Of a stretch of DNA of 64,000 bases, positions 19,961-63,600 are shown in pieces (position 1 is the first letter of the stretch; each line of letters opens with the position of its first letter). Below the pieces are notes generated by a model. The model made no database searches, was not told the DNA's origin, and saw only the letters and a program-made list of their open reading frames with translations. Position numbers and translations under genes: made by a program. The DNA lies in contig OZ020592.1 of NCBI GenBank assembly GCA_963971535.1, positions 58,874,324 to 58,938,323 of the forward strand. Reading direction: 5' to 3'. The stretch comes from Notolepis coatsorum. Its lineage: Eukaryota > Chordata > Actinopteri > Aulopiformes > Paralepididae.

Positions 19961-20395
19961 CAGGGGAGAAGGTGGTGTGATGAGGTTAGAGGTCACAGGG
20001 GGAGAAGGTGGTGTGATGAGGTTAGAGGTCACAGGGGGAGAAGGTGGTGTGATGAGGTTAGAGGTTACAGGGGGAGAAGGTGGTGTGATGAGGTTAGAGG
20101 TTACAGGGGGAGAAGGTGGTGTGATGAGGTTAGAGGTCACAGGGGGAGAAGGTGGTGTGATGAGGTTAGAGGTTACAGGGGGAGAAGGTGGTGTGATGAG
20201 GTTAGAGGTTACAGGGGGAGAAGGTGGTGTGATGAGGTTAGAGGTCACAGGGGGAGAAGGTGGTGTGATGAGGTTAGAGGTCACAGGGGGAGAAGGTGGT
20301 GTGATGAGGTTTGAGGTTACAGGGGGAGAAGGTGGTGTGATGAGGTTTGAGGTTAGACAGGGGAGATGGTGGTGTGATGAGGTTTGAGGTTGAGC
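19961..20395. repeat. 36-bp minisatellite filling lzts2 intron 2
   Basis: About 11-12 copies of a 36-bp unit (GGAGAAGGTGGTGTGATGAG then GTTAGAGGTCACAGGG), with C/T and A/T variants. It fills roughly 430 of the 714 bp of intron 2. Because 36 is divisible by three, several long repetitive open frames appear on both strands; they are not genes. Confidence 0.95.
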
Positions 20396-23561: not shown

Positions 23562-25850
23562 TTAACACTTTGAGTGCCAGCTATTAGCCGCAGCCGCCTG
23601 TTGCAACGCCACCAGTAGATAGATAGGGATCCGTCACCTTGTTTGTAGAGCTATAACTATATTCTATATTATAGCTATGGATACAATACCATGGTCATTT
23701 GACAGTAAGAACCTTCCATTCAAGATGCAAAAAAGAAATCATTTTTTCATCCATACGTTCCCGTTTTATACCGTGGTGAATATGAGTGTTTTTTCTGAAT
23801 GATCCGGGCTAATTCCTGGGAGGCTGGTTATAACCCGCAACGTGTATTATACTAAATCCATTGGTGTTTCGTCCCTACACACGCTACAATTAAAAAATCA
23901 AATGCATATGATAGGTATTATGTTTCATCATGCATGCATGAAAGGGGGGGGTTTGATGCTTTGATCGCCATCAACGGCATACGTTGTGGACTAACGTTAC
24001 ACACACACGGTCAGATCGCATTGAAAACATGCTTGGATCAACGCAAGATTGATATCATATAGCCCTTACCTTCACTAGGATGTACCCCAAAAAGAATATT
24101 CCAATTATCTGATCGCCATTCCAAGTATTGATGTCCATCGTGTCGCCAACATAATCCACCACACATCATGAATCGGGAGTATTTGATTATTCTCAATCCG
24201 AGCATTATAATAACCGCTCGTCTTGCCCGGAGAAAAATAGCCGACCCGGACGCGTGTACCACTTCCGCAACTTATTTGATTTCCGGGGTTGGCCTGATTG
24301 GCCGCGACGGCCACGTGACGCGCGTGGCACGCCCCCGCGGCAGGATGAGAGAGCGTAGATTTAGCTGTGTATCATTTAATCATTTAATATTTGAAAGGCA
24401 TACATTGTTGTCATACAGAAGTACAGAATACTTTTATCCAAAATGCTTCTTACTGTTACACTGTTAGAGACTGTGCTAGACAAATGAATGACTAATTCGG
24501 TCTGAAATAACGTAACTAATAACGTTAGTAAGCACTGCTTATATGCTTATTATGTCTGCGGGGTACAGTAAACGTTTCTCCCGGTACATTCTGAAGAGCA
24601 CACCGCTGTATGTTGGAGAACCAGCGGTCTTCCGCTCCTCCTCACTCGAGTGAGAGCAAAGCCGTGAGAGGGGGGCGGCACCTCGGCACAGCTCAGCCCT
24701 GTGTGAGACGCGAGCAGGAAGGAGGAGATGGGAGTCCTTCCAATCGGAATATGTTGTTTCTTTACACATATGTTGGATTATGAATATGTCTTTATAGCTA
24801 TGCTGCCAGGCTGGAATATGTTGTTTCTTTACACATATGTTGGATTATGAATATGTCTTTATAGCTATGCTGCCAGGCTGGTCCGCGACCCTCCGTGCTG
24901 CGATCACCAGCGGGGAGAATATGCTCACGCGAGCGGCATCGCTGAGCTCTGGTGACGGTCTTATTGGGGCTTATGCCGAGAAGCAGTAACACAACATTGC
25001 AACTGTTGTGTTACTGCTTTCTGACCGAATTAGTCATTAATTTGTAGCTATAAGACATATTCATAATCCAACATATGTGTAAAGAAACAACATATTCCGA
25101 TTGGAAGGACTCCCATCTCCTCCTTCCTGCTCGCGTCTCACACAGGGCTGAGCTGTGCCGAGGTGCCGCCCCCCTCTCACGGCTTTGCTCTCACTCGAGT
25201 GAGGAGGAGCGGAAGACCGCTGGTTCTCCAACATACAGCGGTGTGCTCTTCAGAATGTACCGGGAGAAACGTTTACTGTACCCTGCAGACATAATAAGCA
25301 TATAAGCAGTGCTTACTAACGTTATTAGTTACGCTATTTCAGACCGAATTAGTCATTCATTTGTCTAGCACAGTCTCTAACAGTGTAACAGTAAGAAGCA
25401 TTTTGGATAAAAGTATTCTGTACTTCTGTATGACAACAATGTATGCCTTTCAAATGTTAAATGATAAATGATACACAGCGAAATCTACGCTCTCTCATCC
25501 TGCTTTCGCCAACGGCAGCGCGCTTGCCGCTGCGGCTGCCGCAGGGGCGTGCCACGCGCGTCACGTGGCCGTCGCGGCCAATCAGGCCAACCCCGGAAAT
25601 CAAATACGTTGCGGAAGTGGTACACGCGACCCGGACCCATATAATCGACGCACAGCCGAAGATACAAGTTTCAAAGGGTGCTCGATACCACCGCCTGGGA
25701 GGATCTGGCCGGTACTGCACCTTTGGAGTCCCAGTATGCCTTTTACAGGCAACATACAGCTCCCTGACATTGAATAGGGTATTCAAATCGAAAAAAAAGG
25801 AAAAACGACCCAGAAACAAGAATTCTCATTTATGGCACTGAAAGTGTTAA
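23562..25850. mobile_element. TTAA-target element F carrying a long-inverted-repeat element
   Basis: It starts TTAACACTTTGAGTGCCAGC and ends GGCACTGAAAGTGTTAA. The interior is collinear with element C. The 1.4-kb element 24252-25627 interrupts it between 'agccgacccggac' and 'ccatataatcgacgcac', which are adjacent in C. On the minus strand at about 24063-24120 it carries the family's exon-like block (YLEWRSDNWNILFGVHPSEG) ending at a GTAAGG donor. Confidence 0.85.
24252..25627. mobile_element. Mutator-like non-autonomous element with ~550-bp inverted ends
   Basis: The ends are GCGTGTACCACTTCCGCAAC and its exact complement GTTGCGGAAGTGGTACACGC, apart from one base further in. The arms run about 24252-24800 and 25045-25627 and are nearly identical. 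The right arm has a GC-rich insertion of about 38 bp near 25510. GACCCGGAC flanks both sides (24243-24251 and 25628-25636). A 9-bp duplication with inverted repeats of hundreds of bases is typical of Mutator-like elements. The 76-codon open frame in each arm (24539-24769, 25075-25305) is one sequence seen twice. No transposase. Confidence 0.8.
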
Positions 25851-34139: not shown

Positions 34140-36265
34140 ATGCATGAAGGAGTCAAGTACGTAAACAAGTGTAAACAAAACAAAAATGTTCAATAGTAAT
34201 ACAACAATATACAGTGCAGAGTAGAGAAGGTAGCTGAGTTCCCAATGTGATGAGGTACAACTTAGCTTAGCTTGTGGTGCCACCTTGTGGTGGTGAGGTG
34301 CAATGAGGTAAAATATACAGATACCAATAAATATAAAGTGTGTTAAGTGTCTAAAGTGGGTCAAGCGGGTGCTACAGTGAGTTGTTTACAATGTGTGAGT
34401 GTATTTGATGGTTTGTTACATAGTGTTATTTTCATTGATTGTCATTGAGCATCCTGATGGCCTGGTGATAGAAGCTCCTTCTGAGTCTCTCTGTACTGGT
34501 CATGAGACTCCGGTATCGCTTGCCTGACCGCAGCAGTTCAAAGAGGCAGTTGTTTGGGTGACTAGAGTCTTTGATTATTCTCTTAGCCTTACCCATGCAA
34601 GGCTTGTTGTAAATGTCTTGGAGAGTGGGAAGCCCACCTCCAACTATACACGTTCCCTAGCTTGCTCTGACCCTAATCTTTTTTTTTTTTTATCATTTTT
34701 TTTAAAATTATTATTCACATGAAACAAGACAACACATTAAACACAATCACAATACATAGAACTTCACAAGAAAATAACAAAAACAATAATAATACAGAAT
34801 AACAATTTATACAGACAAAGAGAAAAGAAAACAGAGTTCAACCTTCTACATTTTAAATCCAAGGGGTACTATCTAATAAATGGTCTTTCCCAGTGTTCAG
34901 CCCCGATTCCCGGCTGTGTGACCTTATATTAATAAAACGTACATCTCCAATTCACCACAAGGACCACTTTTTGAGAACACGACCCGAAAACAGAACCTTC
35001 ATGAAAAAACAAAAACCTGTAGAGATGTTCCATAGACTCACAGAGACCGTGTAAAAGTGACCAAACAGTGAAGAAATAGTTAAATAGCTGCCCCCCCATA
35101 AAATCCCCAGCTAAACTCAAGAGGACAAGACAAAAGACAAGACAGACAAAACATTTCCTCCTCCCCCTCCCAAGAGACCCCCGGACTCACCCGAACACGC
35201 ACCACAACCCCGCTCAGCCGCACACGGCGGTCCTGACCTTTTCGGCTGCTGCAAACCACAGGTCAATACCTGCCTGTCCCACCCCAATCACCCGCGCCGT
35301 GGATATCTCAAGATAAATCACATCCAATAGTGTTAGGGACCAGTTAATCACTGTAAGCTTCTCAGGCTCCTTCCATCTCATTGCTATTAGCTTCTTCGCT
35401 GCTGTGACACCCGCTAGGACAACCCTTTTTAGTTGAACGGACGCAGGTAGTGTCGTTATATCGTTCAGGAGTAGCGTAACAGCTGTGAATGGGATAGTTA
35501 AGCCACACAGATCTGAAAGTTTGTCCGTTATTGACCTCCAGAAGCGGGCCACTGGTGGGCAATTGAGCATCCTGATGGCCTGGTGATAGAAGCTCCTTCT
35601 GAGTCTCTCTGTACTGGTCATGAGACTCCGGTATCGCTTGCCTGACCGCAGCAGTTCAAAGAGGCAGTTGTTTGGGTGACTAGAGTCTTTGATTATTCTC
35701 TTAGCCTTACCCATGCAAGGCTTGTTGTAAATGTCTTGGAGAGTGGGAAGCCCACCTCCAATTGTGCGTTCGGCTGAGCGGGCCACTCTCTGTAGTCTGC
35801 TGCGGTCTTGTGCGGTGCTATTCCCAAACCAGGAGGTGATATTGCCTGTCAGGATGCTTTCTATTGTGCATGAGTACAAGTTCTTAAGGATCTTCTGACT
35901 CACGTTGAACCTCCTTAGGCGCCTAAGGAAGTAGAGGCGTTGTCGTGCTTTCTTCACTACACTGTCAATGTGTGTGGTCCATGTCAAGTCCTCGGATATG
36001 TGGACTCCGAGGTACTTAAAACTGTTCACTCTCTCGACCGGTGCCCCGTCGATGCTGAGGGGGCTGTAGTCCCTGACCCCCGACCTCCTAAAGTCCACAA
36101 TCATCTCTTTTGTTTAGCTGACGTTCAGGGAGAGGCTGTTCTCCTGGCACCATCCCGCCAGAACCTCTACCTCTTCCAGGTAGGCCCTCTCGTCGTTTGC
36201 AGAGATCAGGCCCACCACTACTGTGTCGTCAGAAAATTTGATGATTGTGTTGGGAGAGAGTACAG
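34140..36265 (-). mobile_element. L2-like LINE 3' half, disrupted by a templated insertion
   Basis: On the minus strand the frame 36265-35562 encodes the late part of a reverse transcriptase: FSDDTVVVGL (variant of the FADDT catalytic box), EMIVDFRRS, FKYLGVHISEDLTWTTHID and RLYFLRRLRRFNV. There is an in-frame TAA at 36114-36116. The true C-terminus continues at 34444, with a stop soon after RMLNDNQ. Between them lies 921 bp of foreign LINE DNA with 200 bp of the L2-like sequence duplicated. The 3' UTR runs to about 34140. Confidence 0.75.
34643..35563 (-). repeat. Exact 921-bp copy of 37715-38635 inserted in the L2-like LINE
   Basis: Every stretch I compared is identical at a constant offset of 3072. 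The copied segment contains the 3' end of the L1/Tx1-like LINE, its poly(A), its target-site duplication and about 20 bp of flanking DNA. The L2-like host shows a 200-bp direct duplication on each side (34444-34643 = 35562-35761). Confidence 0.9.
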
Positions 36266-37714: not shown

Positions 37715-38285
37715 ACTATACACGTTCCCTAGCTTGCTCTGACCCTAATCTTTTTTTTTTTTTATCATTTTTTTTAAAATTATTATTCACATGAAACAAG
37801 ACAACACATTAAACACAATCACAATACATAGAACTTCACAAGAAAATAACAAAAACAATAATAATACAGAATAACAATTTATACAGACAAAGAGAAAAGA
37901 AAACAGAGTTCAACCTTCTACATTTTAAATCCAAGGGGTACTATCTAATAAATGGTCTTTCCCAGTGTTCAGCCCCGATTCCCGGCTGTGTGACCTTATA
38001 TTAATAAAACGTACATCTCCAATTCACCACAAGGACCACTTTTTGAGAACACGACCCGAAAACAGAACCTTCATGAAAAAACAAAAACCTGTAGAGATGT
38101 TCCATAGACTCACAGAGACCGTGTAAAAGTGACCAAACAGTGAAGAAATAGTTAAATAGCTGCCCCCCCATAAAATCCCCAGCTAAACTCAAGAGGACAA
38201 GACAAAAGACAAGACAGACAAAACATTTCCTCCTCCCCCTCCCAAGAGACCCCCGGACTCACCCGAACACGCACCACAACCCCGC

Positions 38286-41200
38286 TCAGCCGCACACGGC
38301 GGTCCTGACCTTTTCGGCTGCTGCAAACCACAGGTCAATACCTGCCTGTCCCACCCCAATCACCCGCGCCGTGGATATCTCAAGATAAATCACATCCAAT
38401 AGTGTTAGGGACCAGTTAATCACTGTAAGCTTCTCAGGCTCCTTCCATCTCATTGCTATTAGCTTCTTCGCTGCTGTGACACCCGCTAGGACAACCCTTT
38501 TTAGTTGAACGGACGCAGGTAGTGTCGTTATATCGTTCAGGAGTAGCGTAACAGCTGTGAATGGGATAGTTAAGCCACACAGATCTGAAAGTTTGTCCGT
38601 TATTGACCTCCAGAAGCGGGCCACTGGTGGGCAATCCCAATACATATGCATATAAGTGCCAGTGGCCTTTTGAGAGCACAAAGTGCACCGAGAGTCGGTT
38701 ATCAGGCCCATAGCAAATAGCTTCCTAGGTGTAAGATAGGTCCTATGAATATAATTAAAATTAATTTGCTGGTGATTGGGGTTGCGGGAAGATAATGCCA
38801 CATTTGCCCAAACATCATCCCAGTCAAACTTGGGGTCCAACTCCGGGATATCCACACGCCAGATTGTATCCAATGATACATTTTTATACGTGGATTGAAT
38901 TAAGAGCGTATAAAAGTCTGAGACAAACCCTCTGGATGTCGTCCTGTCCACTATGAGCCTGAGGAAGGGGTGTGGGTGCAAAGCTTGAGCCCACGGCACG
39001 CCATGCGCCCTCAGTGCTGACCTTAGTTGAAGGTAAAGAAAGAAGGACTCGCCGGGTAGATCATAAAATTCTCTTAAGTCCTGAAACGCACGGAGGCCGT
39101 TTCTTATCATAAATATCCTCCAGAGTATGAACTCCCCTCCTTTGCCATTGAGGAATATTAACCGGCTTGTGCCCAACAAGTAATTGCTGGTTATTAAAAA
39201 TTGGAGAGTCCAGGTGCCATGGGCATTTAACCCCACACGACCTCTGTACATTACGCCACGTTTGGATCACGTGAGTTATGATCGGTCCATACCTCAGCCG
39301 GCATTTCGAAATAGAGACAGTGGAGTACACCACATCCTGCAATCTTAGCGGTGAGACCGCCGCCGCTTCTAAGGAGCGCCAAGATACAGTATCTACAGGG
39401 TCTAGCCAGCACATCAGAGGTCTCAGTGAGAATGACCAGAAATAAAGCTTAAAATCAGGGATTGCGAGGCCCCCATCTTGTTTCCTACGTTGAGTAGTAG
39501 CCCTTTTGATTCTCGGGCGTTTGTTATTCCAGATAAACTTAGATACCATCGATTGTACCTTGCGCCAGTGATCTATTGGGGGGGGCAGGGGGAGCATTGA
39601 GCTAACAAAATTTATCCTAGGCAGGACGTTCATTTTGATTATGGAAGCCCTGGCTTGTAAGGAGTTAGGAAGGGACGACCACCTGTCTAGATCCTGGCGT
39701 ATTTTATCATAAGTACCCGTGAAGTTGTACTTAGTAGTTTGATTCAGCGTGGGGAATATCTCTATGCCCAAGTATTTAAAATGTTCTACTATGGGGATAT
39801 CAGCTGGTAGTCGTACCGCCTTGGCCAGCTCATTAAGAGGTAGGCAGGCTGATTTGTTCCAGTTAATATTAAAGCCTGACATTTTACCAAAGTCGTCGAT
39901 TATTCCCAATAATTTTGTGGCCGACCGGGAGGGGTCGTCCATAAAAATCAGCAGGTCATCCGCATAGAGAGCAATTTTGTGTGGAGTATTATTGACCATT
40001 ATGGGGACGATGTCCTCCGATTGCCTAATAAATTGGGCCAATGGTTCGAGGGAAAGCGCGAACAGTCCTGGGCTCAGAGGACAACCCTGTCTAGAAGATC
40101 TGGAGACTGGAAAGAGTGTGGAACAGTTTTTGCCTGTCAGTATCATCGCAGACGGCGAGGCATACAGGACTTTAATCATATGAATAAAACTCTTTCCAAG
40201 ACCCATAACCTCAAGTACCTTCCACAGGTATGACCACTCAAGTCTGTCAAACGCCTTCATGGCATCCAAAGACAGAACTGTGGACGGAGCTGTATTGTCT
40301 TTACTGTTATCGATTACATGCAACAGCCTCCTAAGATTATCTGCAGCCAGGCGCCCCGGGATAAAACCAGTTTGATCGCAGTGTACCAATACCGTCATAA
40401 ATCTCTGCCAGCACCTTGGCAAACACTTTTAAATCGGCCCAGAGAAGACTCAAGGGCCTATAGCTACCACAATCATTGGGATCTTTGTCCTTCTTGAGAA
40501 GTAAGGAAATCAACGCCATGTTGACATCTCTTGAGAACTCCCCTTTTTATATAGCATAATTGATCATATCGAGCATCAATGGACCCAGTTGGTCCCAGAA
40601 AGCTAAATACACCTCGGGTGGAATACCATCCCAGCCTGGTGCCTTACCCCTCTGCATTTCAGCAATCGTCTCCCTCAATTCCATAAGAGTGATCGGTTTC
40701 CCCAGTTCCTTGGCCTCTTCCTCAGAAATGTGGGGTATCTCAAGCCCGCCAATGAACGATTCAAATTTAGAGTCGTCGAGATTAACCTCTGAGCTATATA
40801 ACTGAGTAAAACTCTTTAAAAGTGTCGTTGATCTTTTTCGAATCAGTAGTGACTGTACCCTGTCTCGTCTTGATCGAGGGGATATCCGAGAAATGATCAT
40901 TCAAGCGTATTTTCATTGCCAATAGATGGCTAGGCCTGGAGCCGTGAAAGTAGTAATTTTGTCTTGTCCTATGTATCAAGAACTCAGACTGTTGTTTAAG
41001 TATGGAGTTTATTTCTTTCTTGACTATCTTACGTTGTGTGTTTAGTCGTTCACTATAGTTAGTTTGCAAGGATGCGTATAGGTCCGCATATAATGTTTCC
41101 AGTCCTTCTAGTTTTTTTGACTGGGATTTTTGCAAATTGGAGGCGAAAAGTGTGACATGACCCCTGATAAATCCTTTCAATGCGTTCCACAGGACCCTAG

Positions 41201-49506: not shown

Positions 49507-51060
49507 TTGTTGTTTATTGTTTAAAAGGATCCCCATTAGCTGCCACCTAAGTGGCGAGCTAGTTTTCCTGGGGTCCACACAGAAAGACAGCAGAAAACAC
49601 AAAACATAACAACATGAGATACATATGACAATCACAATTAACAATGATAATGTAAAAACAGTAAAACATTGTAGACATCATCAACATCAGAATATTTTGC
49701 TCACATATTTAAGTAGTGCATTCTCAAGTGGTATTTGAAAGACACTTTGCTATTCAATTTACTTATGTTCAGTGGGCAGTTATTCCAATGATTGATGGCA
49801 CGATAAACAACAGTCCTCTTTAAAGCATTTATTTTGGACGTGGTAATATAATCTGTCCATCATCGGTTGACCTAGTAAAATAAGAATGAACCTGACTGCA
49901 TCTGACAATTTGTTTGTCAAGAAAACAGGTTGAGATGAAAAGACAGTGTTCCTGAAAAATGTAACTGTGTTGAAAACCAGCCTATTCTCTACCGTTAACC
50001 CATTCAGTGCCAACCACGAGATTAGTCGGGTTAACTCGCCATGCGTTGAGTGCCAAGACCCGAGAAAACTCTGGTTTTAATCGTTATTTCTTTTATTAGC
50101 AATATCCATTCATTTTTCATCCATCCAGCCTGACGTTATCATTGGGAATGGGTCTGAGCTCGAAAAGGGCAAATACCGCCACCTATCGTCTCCCGGATGG
50201 TATTGCACATCATTGGATTGGATTGGGTGGGACTGTGCATCAGAAAGAAATTCCGGTCCCGGGGTTTCCCATCTCGGGCAAGCAGTATCGTGTTATCACA
50301 TTCACTGGCGAGGCTGGGAGAAGGGTCGATTAGGTGTTATAATGTTGGATCAATAAACGCAATCAATATTTGGAATGGCGATCAGGAATTGGATTAATCT
50401 TTTGCAGAACATCTGATGTGAGGTAAGGACTCTATTTTACCAGTCTTGGGTTAATCAGATGTTTTTTTCTCTGCCATCGCAGCATGTGTGTGTGTGCGTA
50501 ACGTTAGCGCTGACCACGGCATGGATAATCGATTTTCAGCCTGCTTCTCTAGCGTGCATAAATACACATATACTATCGATAATCTAGCGTTTATTTGAAA
50601 ACGATTCATAAATCAGCCGGAAAATTATGACGTGTTTTGTGTATTCCAGTAAAGGGCGATTATCGCAGAATTTCTCTGGAATTACTAGACATCTCCAAAA
50701 AACTATACTCTTATTCAAAACGGTATAAAACAGAAATGTAACAATGAAAAAACAATCCGTTTCGTATGTTGACTGCAAGCAAGTCATTGATAAGCGAGGG
50801 GTGTTTTAGACCCATAGCCATAATTTAAGATATACTTTAAGCGTTCGCAAATGTCCCCGTCCTCCCATTGACTTCCTTATTGGCACGCTAGCCCTAATAT
50901 GGTCAAAGGGGCGTGGCTCTGAATGAGTTAACCATGAGAGTTGCCGGTGCATAGTGATAGTGTTTGTTCTCATGGAACAATGTAAGACTAACCTTGCAGC
51001 TCTGTTTTATGCAAGTCTCTGGGAGACTTGATTCTCTCCACCAAGCTCCAAAATGTAAAA
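49507..51060 (-). mobile_element. LINE 3' end, split by TTAA element H
   Basis: On the minus strand 49850-49700 encodes AINHWNNCPLNISKLNSKVS, a LINE ORF C-terminus, then a stop. The 3' UTR has GGGGATCCTTTTAAACAATA. The element continues on the other side of H (50932-51060). The family is uncertain. Confidence 0.55.
49995..50931. mobile_element. TTAA-target element H (937 bp)
   Basis: It starts TTAACCCATTCAGTGCCAAC and ends GGCTCTGAATGAGTTAA. A second terminal-like motif (TTAACTCGCCATGCGTTGAG) lies 35-45 bp inside. It carries the exon-like block with a GTAAGG donor at 50369-50428. Its right half (50500-50931) matches the right ends of elements B and G. Confidence 0.85.
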
Positions 51061-51308: not shown

Positions 51309-52525
51309 TGAAATAACATTACATTTTGTAAAGAATGCATTAACACTTTGAGTGCCAGCGACGTGTATTGTCGTCTTATCATGCCCCCCTTGAGTGCCGA
51401 CGACGCAAAATGTCGTTTTTATTTTTTAATAGCGATCTGAATTCATATTTCATCAACCGAGTCTCCCGTTGGTACAGCAGCCCCTCCAGGAGCTCAGATG
51501 GGAAAAAATCGTCTATCCCTGTGTATATGCAGGTAAGTCGATTAGACTGACCTGGGATCTGTAGATCTGTAGAGGTGGAGCCAACTGGCTCCATTGTGCT
51601 GGCGAGCTGTCTGATCAAGAGGGATCTGATCGCGAGACGGAAAACAACGTGGAATATATATTTACAGCAGCCAATAATCAATCAATAATCGTGATCGATA
51701 TTTGGAATGGCGATCAGGAATTGGAATAATCTTTTTGGATAACATCTGATCTCAGGTAAGGAATCTATTTTACCAGTCTTAGGATAATCAGACCTGTTTT
51801 CACGGAGATATAACGTCACAGTGCCCAAGTGCGTCCACCTTTTTATAGGATTCTATCACATTTGCATAACAATAGCGAATATTACGTACCTTGCGCCGTT
51901 TTCATTGGAGTTTTTTACAAAACAACGCTGTTTTATTTGTCCTATATATGCGGATATCATTTAAAAACTTAAATTTTACCATTTTAGTTCCCTTTAGACA
52001 ACAAACATAATGCTAATGATGCACTTTAATTATGATAATTAGGTGGCCATTCACGGTCACTGTACTGAGGTGACGTGAGGGCGCATTCATAGTTTAACGC
52101 TCCTGTGTTCAGATCGCATTTTCATCAACTTTTACCGTCCTGCTGACCTGTGAACTGTGAAAAAAGGTCTTGGAAAATGGAGTTCTTTAGTTTGAACCTG
52201 TTTTCATCCTTTAAAATCAATGCTGCCATCTACTGTCAGCTGGAAGGTAGTGTCGTTTGTCTACCATCTCATCTCAGGAGCAAACAACATCCCCATTTTA
52301 TTTGTCTAACAAACAAAATATTAATCACAATCACTTGTCACATTAACATTTGTGAGTACATGTGTTTTCAACAAAAATATGACAAATTTAACACAACAGC
52401 CAGCACTTCATAAAATTTTATAAACATTATATAAAAAATACAATAAACATAACTTAGAACAATAACTATTTACAGCACACCATACATATTTATAAATTTT
52501 TTCATTCGCTCACTCATTCATACAC

Positions 52526-52728
52526 TCATTCATCCAAACACCAGTAACACCAGAAACTAGCATCTTCGTCCTCCTCCTCCTCCCACTGGACACACATGGT
52601 GTGGAACCATTTGTGACAGTTGTCACACTGGACCCACGACACCAAACCCTCAGAGTCCACAGGGGGGTTCGCCTTTTTACACCGGCCACACCGCCAGATC
52701 CCCAGCTTCTGCCTCTTGGTGGTGTGAC
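52526..52728 (-). CDS. PHD-finger exon (C-terminus of a transposon-type gene)
   Basis: After acceptor TTTTAACTGCAG the exon reads HTTKRQKLGIWRCGRCKKAN and ends DASFWCYWCLDE at a TGA. The ligands follow the PHD C4-H-C3 order: C-x2-C, 17 residues, C-x2-C, 4 residues, H-x2-C, 14 residues, C-x2-C. PHD fingers usually read histone tails; fish pogo/Tigger-like transposases also commonly end in such a finger. Together with the Psq-type domain upstream (54545-54698) it looks like the end of a defective pogo-like gene. It is intact, and no ORF longer than the exon covers it. Confidence 0.7.
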
Positions 52729-52798
52729 CTGCAGTTAAAAAGAAATTTATTATTATGACGCTGCTTGATTACAATATACCAAGGTCCAATAATAAGTA

Positions 52799-53284
52799 AG
52801 GGATAATGTATAGCTACGAGGTCATTGTCGCAAAATAATTGACCGACACGGAGTTTAAAATACCGAGGCGCAGCGCTGAGGTGTTTTAAACGTCAGTGAA
52901 GGTCAATTATTTTGCGACAATGATCGAGTAAAGCTATACATTATCCCGCTTATTACATGGCTAACTTACTAACAATATACCTAATTCATCGACAAGACTA
53001 GATCAAATGAAGACGCAGTTGTTCTGTGGCTCTGTCAGCCCAAATAAAGTGATTATTATTATCGGCAGCCGGCAGGTCTCTGGTCTGATTGCATGACTGA
53101 GTGCAGCTGTGCATATGCTGAGCAGCACTGATACAGTGTTGTAGTGGGCTTGATTGCGAACAGCTGCGCACAGCGGTCATTATTGTCCCACAGCGGTCAT
53201 TATTGTGTGATAACGGACCTCTGACACGGGCTATTGACCAATCACAAGCAAGCATTTCGGCGAATGTGAAAACGCCATGTAATA
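52799..53284. repeat. Fold-back repeat inside element G
   Basis: GGGATAATGTATAGCTACGA then TTGTCGCAAAATAATTGACC is mirrored by GGTCAATTATTTTGCGACAA then AGCTATACATTATCCC. ATTACATGG at 52953 and CCATGTAATAA at 53275-53285 form an outer pair. The segment includes CACAGCGGTCATTATTGT repeated twice (53171-53206). It lies in an intron of the Psq/PHD gene. Confidence 0.65.
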
Positions 53285-53439
53285 AATATGAATAACTATC
53301 TATATAGTACTTTTCACACATGGACCACAGTTCAAAGTGCCCCACAGCAATTTGTATAAAATCAGCAAATTTTTTACAAAATAAATAACAATTCATAAGT
53401 TTGCCCTGACAAACTCAAAAAACATAAGTAACATGCCGA

Positions 53440-54420
53440 TGGGTGTCGTGGGTCTGGCGTGGGAGGAGGAGGATGTCGATGCTCCTGTTGGTCCAGGAAT
53501 ACAGGAGGCTGCAGACACAAAAAGGGAGCACCACTCAAAAAAATTATTTTGTTTGGTTTGGTAAATATTGCGCTATGAACAGTCTATCAGTGTACTGTGT
53601 GTGTGTGTAGGCCGTAGGGGCAGGTACAATAAGAGTTTTTCTTCCTGTTCCTTTTGGCCATGGACATTTGTAGATCGTGTTTTTTTCACAGTTGTTTGAA
53701 AAAGCTTACGGTGGGAGGGAGAGGAAGTTGGCTGGGACACCCGGTGGGACTGCGGTGGGACTGCCGGCTCTGAGAAAATGGTTAAGAAACAATAAAACAT
53801 GATTATTTATTCATAAAAAAATGTATACTTTTTTGCTAACTGAGAATGTTGTCTCCCAAATAACTGTTAAAAGAAAACAAATAAATAAATACCATCCATT
53901 ATGGCTGTTGGGGAGGAAGAGGTGGAGGGGTGGTGATCTTCCCCTCTCAAAGCAGGCAGGCGAGTGCTGGTGTGGAGGCTAGAGGCGGGCAGCAGACTGT
54001 GGGAGGCAGAAGAGGGGGGCATGGAGGCTGAGGCTGAGGGACCGGCGATGGAAAGACCGGAGCTGGTGGTGGGAGCGGCCCCGGGGGACACTCCTCTTCT
54101 GCGGCTGGGGAGAGAGCCACCACGCGGGGTACGGGAGGAGGTTGTGGGAGTCCTTAAAGTTTCAGCCCGCTGCCGCTGTCGGTCTGCCCTGGCCAGAGCT
54201 CCTGCCTCGGCGCGGGCGGCGCGGTCCTCTGTCTCATCGATGGCATCCGTCATCTCCTGGGCGGTGAGCAGGCGGGCCTTGGTGGTGTTCCTCCTGACCT
54301 TTCCAGATCTTCTTGTGAACTCTATCTGGGCCAGGAGTTGTCCCAGGTCCGCTGTGATCCTCCCTGCTGTTACAAGGGGGTGGTTGAGGTAGGGGTTGGG
54401 GGGTGAGTCCTGGACTAGAG
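53440..54420 (-). pseudogene. Middle exons of the Psq/PHD gene (Ser/Pro/Arg-rich)
   Basis: From 54420 the frame reads NPYLNHPLVTAGRITADLGQ, then LLAQIEFTRRSGKVRRNTTK, then EMTDAIDETEDRAARAEAGA and a Ser/Pro-rich tail to donor ATGGATG|GTATTT at about 53893. A short exon EPAVPPQSHRVSQPTSSPSH lies at 53709-53772. A further one (53440-53520) contains PGPTGASTSSSSHARPTTP. Fish pogo/Tigger-like transposases have a similar post-catalytic region. The DDE catalytic domain expected between the helix-turn-helix and NPYLNHP is missing; in its place is a minisatellite (54420-54545). Splicing to the PHD exon is not proven. Confidence 0.5.
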
Positions 54421-54545
54421 CACGGGGGCTGGGTGGGGGGCTGGGAGGGGGGCTAGGAGCACGGGGGCTGGGTGGGGGGCTAGGAGCACGGGGGCTGGGT
54501 CGGGGGCTAGGAGCACGGGGGCTGGGTGGGGGGCTGGACTTAGAT
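54420..54545. repeat. ~27-bp GC-rich minisatellite at the missing DDE domain
   Basis: About four to five copies of GCACGGGGGCTGGGTGGGGG with GGCTAGGA. It joins the end of the helix-turn-helix exon to the post-catalytic exon. It probably expanded at the deletion junction. Confidence 0.8.
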
Positions 54546-54698
54546 CAGGCTGGACTTAGGGACCTCGAACAACGTGGCTGCCCGCCTCGCACTCCACCTG
54601 CCTGCTCTGACCTCTGCAATGGCCTGATCCATGGCCTCCTGGGTCCACAGACGCACCTTCCTCTCCCTCTTCCGCATTTGCCGGATATTAGGCATGCT
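54546..54698 (-). pseudogene. Psq-type helix-turn-helix exon
   Basis: After acceptor TTTGCAG at 54699 the exon reads SMPNIRQMRKRERKVRLWTQ then EAMDQAIAEVRAGRWSARRA then ATLFEVPKSSLI and a stop. W-T-x-E-x-M-x-x-A-I...G-x-x-S-x-x-x-A-A-x-x-F-x-V-P-x-S is the Psq/CENP-B N-terminal DNA-binding pattern of pogo-like transposases. A possible first exon ATG (MLNWVK at 55115-55098, donor GTAAGG) joins in phase. Premature termination follows directly at the minisatellite. Confidence 0.7.
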
Positions 54699-55097
54699 CT
54701 GCAAACACACAAAAATATTTTAAACAAGAAAGTAAAATAATATGAACTTTATTATTATTGTACGACTGACGAGTTTATTTTATTTGATTTATTTAGCACA
54801 TTATTTAAAAAAAAACAGTGCTAGGAGGGAACTTATGTGAGTGATTTATGATGAAATTAAATTAGATTTGAATTGTTTTTTTGAATATGGATAAGGAGGT
54901 TGTTGACCTCAATGATGAATTTAGTTTATTGCTATGGTTTGTTGGATATGAGTGAAATTCTGATGAAAAGATGCAGAACAATGGAAGGTATCAAGAACAT
55001 CTTGCCTTTTGTTAATGAACTTGAATATGAATGAGCATGAAACCAAAATGATTATGCTGAAATATTACCAGACATGCAAACACACACACAACCTTAC

Positions 55098-55115
55098 CTT
55101 CACCCAGTTCAGCAT
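55098..55115 (-). CDS. Possible first exon of the Psq/PHD gene (6 codons)
   Basis: ATGCTGAACTGGGTGAAG ends at a good donor (GTAAGG) and joins in phase to the acceptor at 54699, giving MLNWVK|SMPNIRQ. Support is only the splice signals and frame. Confidence 0.35.
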
Positions 55116-55243
55116 GGCAGCCTCACACACACACACACACACACACACCTCCATTCACCTGTAGAGAAACAAACAAGCACACACAAACCTACCGTGTCTG
55201 CTGTCTGACTTTGTCACTGCTTCAGATGTTTTTTTATACAGAG

Positions 55244-55283
<40 letters not shown>

Positions 55284-56371
55284 CCAGTTCATTATTTTCC
55301 CCGCGAAAATTATTGTTCTCCCTTCGATTATTTTCGCGCAACCTCAGTTCATCACTCGTTCAGACAAACTTAGATCTCTTATTAAGATTACAAATGTACA
55401 ACACATTTCGTCGGACAAAACACTGGCTATATATGCTAGCAACATAACCAAACAATCTGACTTCATCTTGGGGCGAGTGGGAGTTCGTGTTTAAGGAACA
55501 GGAAGCTACTTTTACTTGGAAATCAGCGTCGCCCCGAACACATTCGAACAATTATAACGTTGCAGTGGTACAAACGTTCACATCTAGTAGTCTTTAGATG
55601 ACTAAATATAGATGAATACTCATGAAATTTGATATATATACTCTAAAATAAGTATGATTTCATATCACCTACCTTTCGACGTGAAAATCTGGTGGGGCTG
55701 TGAGGAAAGATCCAGAATGCCGCGCAAGATGGGGCGTGACCGAAGTTGGGTTTGGGCGTTCCCAGATAAAGAGGGTGACCGGGATTGGTTTACGTTCCGT
55801 TAAGCGTTTGCCCTATGCTGTGTGTGGCTGTGATCGCTGATGAGGAAATAAGAGAATAGATATTTCAGCCCGCGTCTATAGCGTGCATAAGTACACATAT
55901 ACTATCGATAATCTAGCGTTTATTTGAAAACGATTCATAAATAGGCAGAAAAATTACAACGTTTTTGTGTATTCTAGAATATTCCAGTAAATGCCTTTTA
56001 TCACGGAATCTTTATATTTTCGAGGGCTTTTCAAAATGATATAAAACAAAAATGAACCGATAAAAAAACAATCCGTTTCGACAATGTTGACTGCAAACAG
56101 GTCATTGATAAGCGACGGGCAGATTAGACACATAGCCATAATTTAAAACATAGATTAGGCGTTTCTAACGCTAACATTGAAGTGGATGATGGCATTCAAC
56201 GGGGTAAAAAGGTAAACAAGGTAGGCACTGATAGTGTTAAGCGTCATTTAGTACTCAAAACCCAAAGTCTCAGACTTGTGACTTGCTTGAGACATGCCCG
56301 TCTTGACTTGGGACTTTACTTGGGAATTGCCAGTCTTGACTTAGGACTTGGGTCCCACCTCTGGTTTCAAC

Positions 56372-61355: not shown

Positions 61356-61564
61356 CTCTTATCTCTTCCTCTGTGTCTCTCTTATCTTTCTCTTTCTCTC
61401 TCTCCAATTGGGTCACACTGGTTATGGTTTGTCCTCCAGGCACTAAGGTAAAGAAAGAGGTGTTGGTGGTGGAGAAGAAGGAGGAGGGGTGGGGTTTCCA
61501 GAAGTGAGAGTTCAAGGTCACAACTTGGGTCTGTTTCAATAATACAGGCCTGGAGAGAGAACAC

Positions 61565-62050
61565 TCAACGTGTCTAAAGCATTAAAGCAATGGAGAACAC
61601 TCAACGTGTCTAAAGCATTAAAGCAATGGAGAACACTCAACGTGTCTAAAGCATTAAAGCAATGGAGAACACTCAACGTGTCTAAAGCATTAAAGCAATG
61701 GAGAACACTAAACGTGTCTAAAGCATTAAAGAAATGGAGAACACTCAATGTGTCTAAAGCATTAAAGCAATGGAGAACACTCAACGTGTCTAAAGCATTA
61801 AAGCAATGGAGAACACTCAACGTGTCTAAAGCATTAAAGCAATGGAGAACACTCAACGTGTCTAAAGCATTAAAGCAATGGAGAACACTCAACGTGTCTA
61901 AAGCATTAAAGCAATGGAGAACACGCAACGTGTCTAAAGCATTAAAGCAATGGAGAACACTAAACGTGTCTAAAGCATTAAAGCAATGGAGAACACTCAA
62001 CTTGTCTAAAGCATTAAAACAATGGAGAACACGAAACTTGTCTAAAGCAG
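61565..62050. repeat. 36-bp minisatellite, about 13 copies
   Basis: The unit is AACGTGTCTAAAGCATTAAA then GCAATGGAGAACACTC, with few differences between copies. A 36-bp unit is a multiple of three, so both strands show long repetitive open frames. Confidence 0.95.
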
Positions 62051-63185: not shown

Positions 63186-63600
63186 CCTTAATACAGTTAG
63201 CTAGTAGTGAATGGGCAGACAACTCCTTAATAAGTTAATACAGTTAGCTAGTAGTGAATGGGCAGACAACTCCTTAATACAGTTAGCTAGTAGTGAATGG
63301 GCAGACAACTCCTTAATACAGTTAGCTAGTAGTGAATGGGCAGACAACTCCTTAATAAGTTAATACAGTTAGCTAGTAGTGAATGGGCAGACAACTCCTT
63401 AATAAGTTAATACAGTTAGCTAGTAGTGAATGGGCAGACAACTCCTTAATACAGTTAGCTAGTAGTGAATGGGCAGACAACTCCTTAATACAGTTAGCTA
63501 GTAGTGAATGGGCAGACAACTCCTTAATAAGTTAATACAGTTAGCTAGTAGTGAATGGGCAGACAACTCCTTAATACAGTTAGCTAGTAGTGAATGTGAA
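63186..63600. repeat. Minisatellite with two alternating unit lengths (~39 and ~50 bp)
   Basis: The common unit TACAGTTAGCTAGTAGTGAA then TGGGCAGACAACTCCTTAA is followed either directly by the next unit or by an extra TAAGTTAA-type spacer. There are about ten units. Confidence 0.9.

Follow-up and report, generated by a model that had tools for sequence, protein, structure and literature searches.

The transposons described to date that lie closest to the element analysed here belong to two groups of the pogo superfamily. Fot/Fot-like elements combine the domains HTH_psq and HTH_Tnp_Tc5 with a DD35D catalytic triad, and the available text of PMC7386202 places them in fungi, Chromista, protists, and algae. 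In fishes, the pogo elements with a DD35D triad described so far are those of Passer, which carry a BrkDBD domain instead (available text of PMC7386202 and PMC9976928). We looked into a stretch of 64,000 bp from the fish Notolepis coatsorum (contig OZ020592.1; G000:C24:58874324-58938323, hereafter the window), searching the 3.42-Gb assembly for relatives of an element with TTAA target sites at 51340-56240 that encloses a Psq helix-turn-helix and a PHD finger on the minus strand. The original prediction had treated this gene as internal cargo, either as a captured pogo-like unit or as a Psq/PHD-type transposase not described for TTAA elements. We find instead that the locus is almost certainly a nested insertion, in which a young, non-autonomous pogo copy sits within an older TTAA element.

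The boundaries of the insert follow from copies of the TTAA element that lack it. At the site of insertion, six of the 11 aligned copies without the insert have precisely GATATAAGCG, in which TA occurs once, while the window reads GATA-TA-ACGTCACAG...GTTCCGT-TA-AGCG, with the TA present twice; the insert therefore extends from 51813 to 55800 and is flanked by a TA target duplication. These ends (TA-ACGTCACAG...GTTCCGT-TA) are found again elsewhere, between unrelated flanks, and a 5,061-bp copy at another locus, L029, shares them and has TA on each side. The insert is a high-copy repeat: when its left 300 bases were used as the query, all 40 scored matches were full length at about 100% identity (1,586 candidates), and a search with its coding middle found many loci at 95-100% identity (40 candidates scored of 350). 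Coding-middle matches other than the window's own start at query base 181-215, which is the site of a deletion in the window copy, and part of the Psq stretch lay near the match in only 3 of the 40 scored candidates. We checked the ends of 10 further pogo copies picked from this search. The right end was found in all 10 and was followed by TA in 9, and the left end was found in 7 and preceded by TA in each of them.

Some observations weigh against these boundaries. The other 5 of the 11 aligned uninserted copies differ slightly from GATATAAGCG; the left end was not within the bases fetched for three of the 10 further pogo copies; and at C8:203.2 Mb the right end of the copy is not followed by TA. 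The pogo ends also form only a weak inverted repeat (19 of 32 positions agree). It was seen by end-anchored comparison alone, as strict local alignment gave no repeat. Of 20,000 random pairs of 60-mers from the window, 8 reached its score.

Next, we characterized the surrounding element. Its terminal sequence TTAACACTTTGAGTGCC lies at 51340 (plus strand, 0 mismatches) and is matched on the minus strand at 56240 (2 mismatches), where it reads TTAACACTATCAGTGCC. That these are ends of a TTAA family, as originally proposed, was borne out both by the 8 matches to TTAACACTTTGAGTGCC in the window at up to 3 mismatches, compared with 0.23 expected from shuffles, and by the similarity of the subterminal stretches to another TTAA element in the window (50349-50465, 87.5%; 50524-50845, 77%). 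The middle is likewise unique within the window, its matches there being only short or simple repeats. A genome search with the left 461 bases of the element gave matches in 40 of 40 scored candidates, one of them the window itself (3,409 candidates at first look). We fetched 20 non-window copies with 9 to 10 kb around the element start. In 19 of these, the left part (to about 51813) joins the right part (from about 55801) within 40 bases, and three of the 19 (L013, L022, and L027) carry inserts at other sites; the 4-kb middle matched none of the 20. Copies without an interruption are 0.89 to 0.94 kb long. Of 17 tabulated copies, 15 are flanked by TTAA on each side (the left one is missing from L010 and L016), a target duplication that the element has in common with piggyBac and other TTAA-target elements; L019, L023, and L025 were excluded from the tabulation because the match fell short of the right end. 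Of the 20 fetched copies, L009 (988-5230) holds a different 4.2-kb insert at almost the same spot as the window's insert, with a 640-codon frame that resembles, by eye, a LINE reverse transcriptase.

These copies also bear on the idea that the TTAA family is mobilized by a Psq-DDE-PHD transposase of its own, of which the window copy would be a decayed autonomous member. The position of the gene between intact TTAA ends speaks for it, but it is already contradicted, and we give it practically no chance of being right. No fetched TTAA copy (0 of 20) carries the Psq-PHD gene; the middle has termini of its own, with TA duplication, at unrelated places, the outcome that the original prediction had named as refuting it; and the flanks of 22 other pogo copies (one or both sides) matched the halves of the TTAA element in no case. 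In addition, the two differ in age: identity to the 11 uninserted copies is 93.0-96.0% for the TTAA element, compared with 99.8% identity between the insert and L029 (gaps aside), so that the insert is by far the younger of the two, as nesting demands. The supposed cargo is thus the remains of a separate young pogo transposon and not a new kind of TTAA transposase. The pogo-like unit of the original prediction does exist, with its own ends, TA duplication, and copies elsewhere, but it came by ordinary self-insertion rather than by capture.

No transposase was found in the TTAA container element, and Pfam gave no domain in four frames, two of which belong to the shared subterminal block. A piggyBac-type gene linked to the TTAA-family ends, the other outcome that had been envisaged, did not appear either: none of six piggyBac loci fetched, out of 116 scored matches, has these ends as its own, and at one of the loci (L057) a TTAA-family copy adjoins the gene. 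PiggyBac genes are abundant in this genome: most of the 116 scored frames are stop-free, and many are about 560 residues long with equal score, which suggests recent activity.

The preferred reading, nested insertion, would then involve two steps. What is now 51340-56240 would first have been occupied by the older element, about 0.9 kb long, non-autonomous, and with TTAA as its target, and a pogo-superfamily transposon would later have entered it at a TA, duplicating that TA. The inserted copy is an internally deleted derivative of the 5,061-bp family, which has Psq and Tc5 helix-turn-helix domains, a DD35D triad, and, further downstream, a PHD exon set apart from the rest. Ordinary nesting thereby takes the place of the striking idea that TTAA elements have a Psq/PHD transposase.

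We compared the window copy with L029 to assess what is left of the gene. The window copy lacks L029:3057-4143, about 1.1 kb that hold the second helix-turn-helix and the catalytic core. At the junction, GGCTGG is followed by the filler ACTTAG and then by ATCAGGCTGGACTTAG, an order that indicates that the filler copies nearby sequence. Interrupted gap repair with template switching is a proposed source of internal deletions in cut-and-paste elements, and the deletion in the window probably arose in this way after an excision. The minus-strand Psq and PHD domains that had been predicted both pass the Pfam cut-offs (the former over profile positions 1-33 of 45), but they do not belong to one open gene, the Psq frame stopping at 54540 after 51 residues. 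The window copy therefore contains no working Psq-PHD gene. Both pogo ends have been kept, so the copy could still be moved by transposase from other copies.

The retention of both pairs of ends would also suit a composite that now behaves as a unit, with the TTAA ends carrying the pogo remnant. In a variant of this idea, the Psq stub would act as a repressor that binds pogo ends; most of the Psq domain is kept, and truncated transposases of other families act as repressors binding the ends of their family. We consider both versions highly improbable, as no second composite copy occurs among the 20 TTAA copies, and the stub lacks the second helix-turn-helix and shows no sign of being made.

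Nested insertion of a pogo copy directs attention to the family from which that copy derives. On its minus strand, L029 has 645 codons in a row without a stop (637 when counted from the first ATG), which encode HTH_psq (E value = 7.8e-8), HTH_Tnp_Tc5 (E value = 2.8e-5), and DDE_1 (E value = 1.3e-18) domains, a catalytic triad with DD35D spacing (by motif), and a tail that is proline rich and then basic. Membership in the pogo superfamily rests on the DDE_1 catalytic domain, the paired helix-turn-helix domains, and the TA duplication. A PHD exon of 65 residues lies about 1.1 kb past the transposase frame, behind a plausible splice acceptor. Genome-wide, at least 29 stop-free frames, that of the query's own locus included, span residues 1-645 (68 candidates scored), 10 of the 29 have an identical top score, and 27 of the 29 are followed by a PHD exon in the same orientation. 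The family is very young, with many intact frames. The single match to a solved structure for the transposase frame (E value = 0.088) fell in low-complexity sequence, and no related structure was found. The window copy and L029 share a near-palindrome of about 166 bases (52790-52955), situated in what is presumed to be the intron of the element.

The two frames that have no downstream PHD-exon match, unlike the other 27, lie 17 kb apart (G000:C4:72970570-72972504 and 72987381-72989315) and provide a ready-made comparison for studying what the PHD finger does. A PHD exon set apart from the rest, as in a spliced gene, could also point to cargo in the form of a captured host gene that has Psq and PHD domains. 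That explanation is already contradicted, and its probability is close to nil: the full copies encode a DDE transposase, and there are at least 29 uninterrupted, almost identical copies with TA-flanked ends. What remains of interest, with nested insertion accepted, is a pogo family with that many uninterrupted frames, most of them followed by a PHD exon, an unusual addition that resembles a chromatin reader.

We then asked what the PHD exon of this family might do. In four of four aligned copies, its C4HC3 zinc ligands do not vary, nor do the tryptophans of WVxC and KWFH. The nearest solved chains are the PHD fingers of KDM5B (2ma5, E value = 7e-5) and KDM5A (2kgg, E value = 3.7e-4), with which its WVQCD and WFH motifs align; the overall similarity is weak, and here the finger is part of a transposon. 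KDM5-type PHD fingers bind H3K4me3 via two tryptophans, and we take the tryptophans of WVxC and KWFH to be those that form the H3K4me3 cage. The finger may read histones, and its exon may be spliced to the transposase. An AlphaFold model of the exon was unusable (mean predicted local distance difference test score of 46).

PHD exons are present also in older, decayed relatives (L050 and L051). We considered L051 as a host gene cluster and ruled this out; it is only a piece of the element, made up of the PHD exon and some of an intron, and has no Psq or DDE parts. It was fetched from a group of five divergent matches to the PHD exon (76-85%) that fall within 1 Mb of each other at G000:C1:311606077-312567619, and three further matches about 4.5 kb apart resemble a tandem array (G000:C29:62514195, 62518746, and 62523281).

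Should the finger be joined to the transposase by splicing and read histone H3, one could test directly whether a cut-and-paste transposase is guided by chromatin in its choice of targets. The fuller proposal is that of a currently active animal pogo clade whose transposase acquired, through splicing, a histone-reading PHD finger as an epigenetic reader of its own, with which it selects or tolerates the chromatin that it enters; we regard it as unlikely. In a test of promoter targeting by CpG content, 20 right flanks (1.2 kb) had a mean CpG observed/expected ratio of 0.64 and a GC content of 0.43, compared with 0.65 and 0.43 for 199 background tiles, with one outlier (L061, ratio of 1.58). The flanks were thus no richer in CpG than the background, and this crude test lends no support to H3K4me3-steered integration. 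Comparison of L029 with L050 gave omega values of 0.38 (residues 1-345), 0.61 (tail), and 0.43 (PHD exon, where there are only 6 changes). Outside the coding parts, identity between these two copies ranges from 88% to 99%, so that the coding parts are not clearly more conserved.

Coordinates of the TTAA element and of the nested pogo copy within the window (strand left empty where none applies)
Feature	Positions	Strand	Basis
Left part of TTAA element, including the TA at the start of the insert	51340..51812		90-95% identity in 40 scored copies, itself included
TA target duplication, left copy	51811..51812		6 of 11 aligned uninserted copies exactly GATATAAGCG, single TA
Internally deleted pogo-type transposon, 3,988 bp	51813..55800	-	ends shared with L029:331-5391 (5,061 bp); mismatched at 9 of the 3,993 columns aligned
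Terminal region, arm of degenerate inverted repeat	51813..51844	+	in the full-length copy, 19/32 positions agree with the other arm
PHD-finger exon, 66 residues	52529..52726	-	PHD E value = 1.2e-5, passes Pfam cut-off
Remnant of proline-rich/basic transposase tail, in another frame than the stub	53867..54544	-	open frame; same protein in the 645-codon frame of L029
Junction of internal deletion, with short filler	54536..54545		L029:3057-4143 missing
Psq helix-turn-helix stub of 51 residues plus stop codon	54540..54695	-	HTH_psq E value = 6.8e-8 for the frame holding the stub
Terminal region, other arm of degenerate inverted repeat	55769..55800	-	end-anchored comparison
TA target duplication, right copy	55801..55802		comparison with uninserted copies and L029
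Right part of TTAA element, starting with the second TA	55801..56240		continuous with the left part in 19 of 20 fetched copies

Other repeats were seen in the window. They include a 2.3-kb TTAA element (23562-25850) with long inverted repeats (24245-24800 and 25045-25634, 92%), an exact 200-base duplication (34444-34643 and 35562-35761), an exact 921-base duplication (34643-35563 and 37715-38635), and tandem arrays at 19963-20391, 61557-62049, and 63186-63596 with units of 36, 36, and about 39 bases (90-97% matches).

Protein databases hold Psq-DDE-PHD architectures, and a PHD-bearing pogo element may thus be known beyond the literature that we searched. Within that literature, as far as its available text goes and with PMC10799480 included, no transposon of the pogo or psq type is described as having a PHD finger, and the term PHD does not occur in the main text, as available, of PMC7386202 or PMC9976928. 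Compared by description, the 5,061-bp family shares with Fot/Fot-like elements the pairing of HTH_psq with HTH_Tnp_Tc5, the DD35D triad, and the TA duplication, the last of which is found in part of the Fot/Fot-like family, and its length lies inside the 1.20 to 5.20 kb stated for the pogo superfamily (available text of PMC7386202). It differs from them in its terminal repeats, which are degenerate and 32 bp long, whereas those of Fot/Fot-like elements are typically 40 to 60 bp, and in its host, a fish and not a fungus, chromist, protist, or alga (same source). With Passer it has in common the DD35D triad, the TA duplication, short terminal repeats (here only degenerate ones), and young copies in fish (available text of PMC9976928 and PMC7386202). 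Passer elements, however, are described in the same texts as 1.6 to 4.0 kb long, with a transposase of 400 to 500 residues that combines BrkDBD with HTH_Tnp_Tc5, whereas the family reported here has HTH_psq, a 637-residue frame plus a PHD exon, and a length of 5.06 kb.

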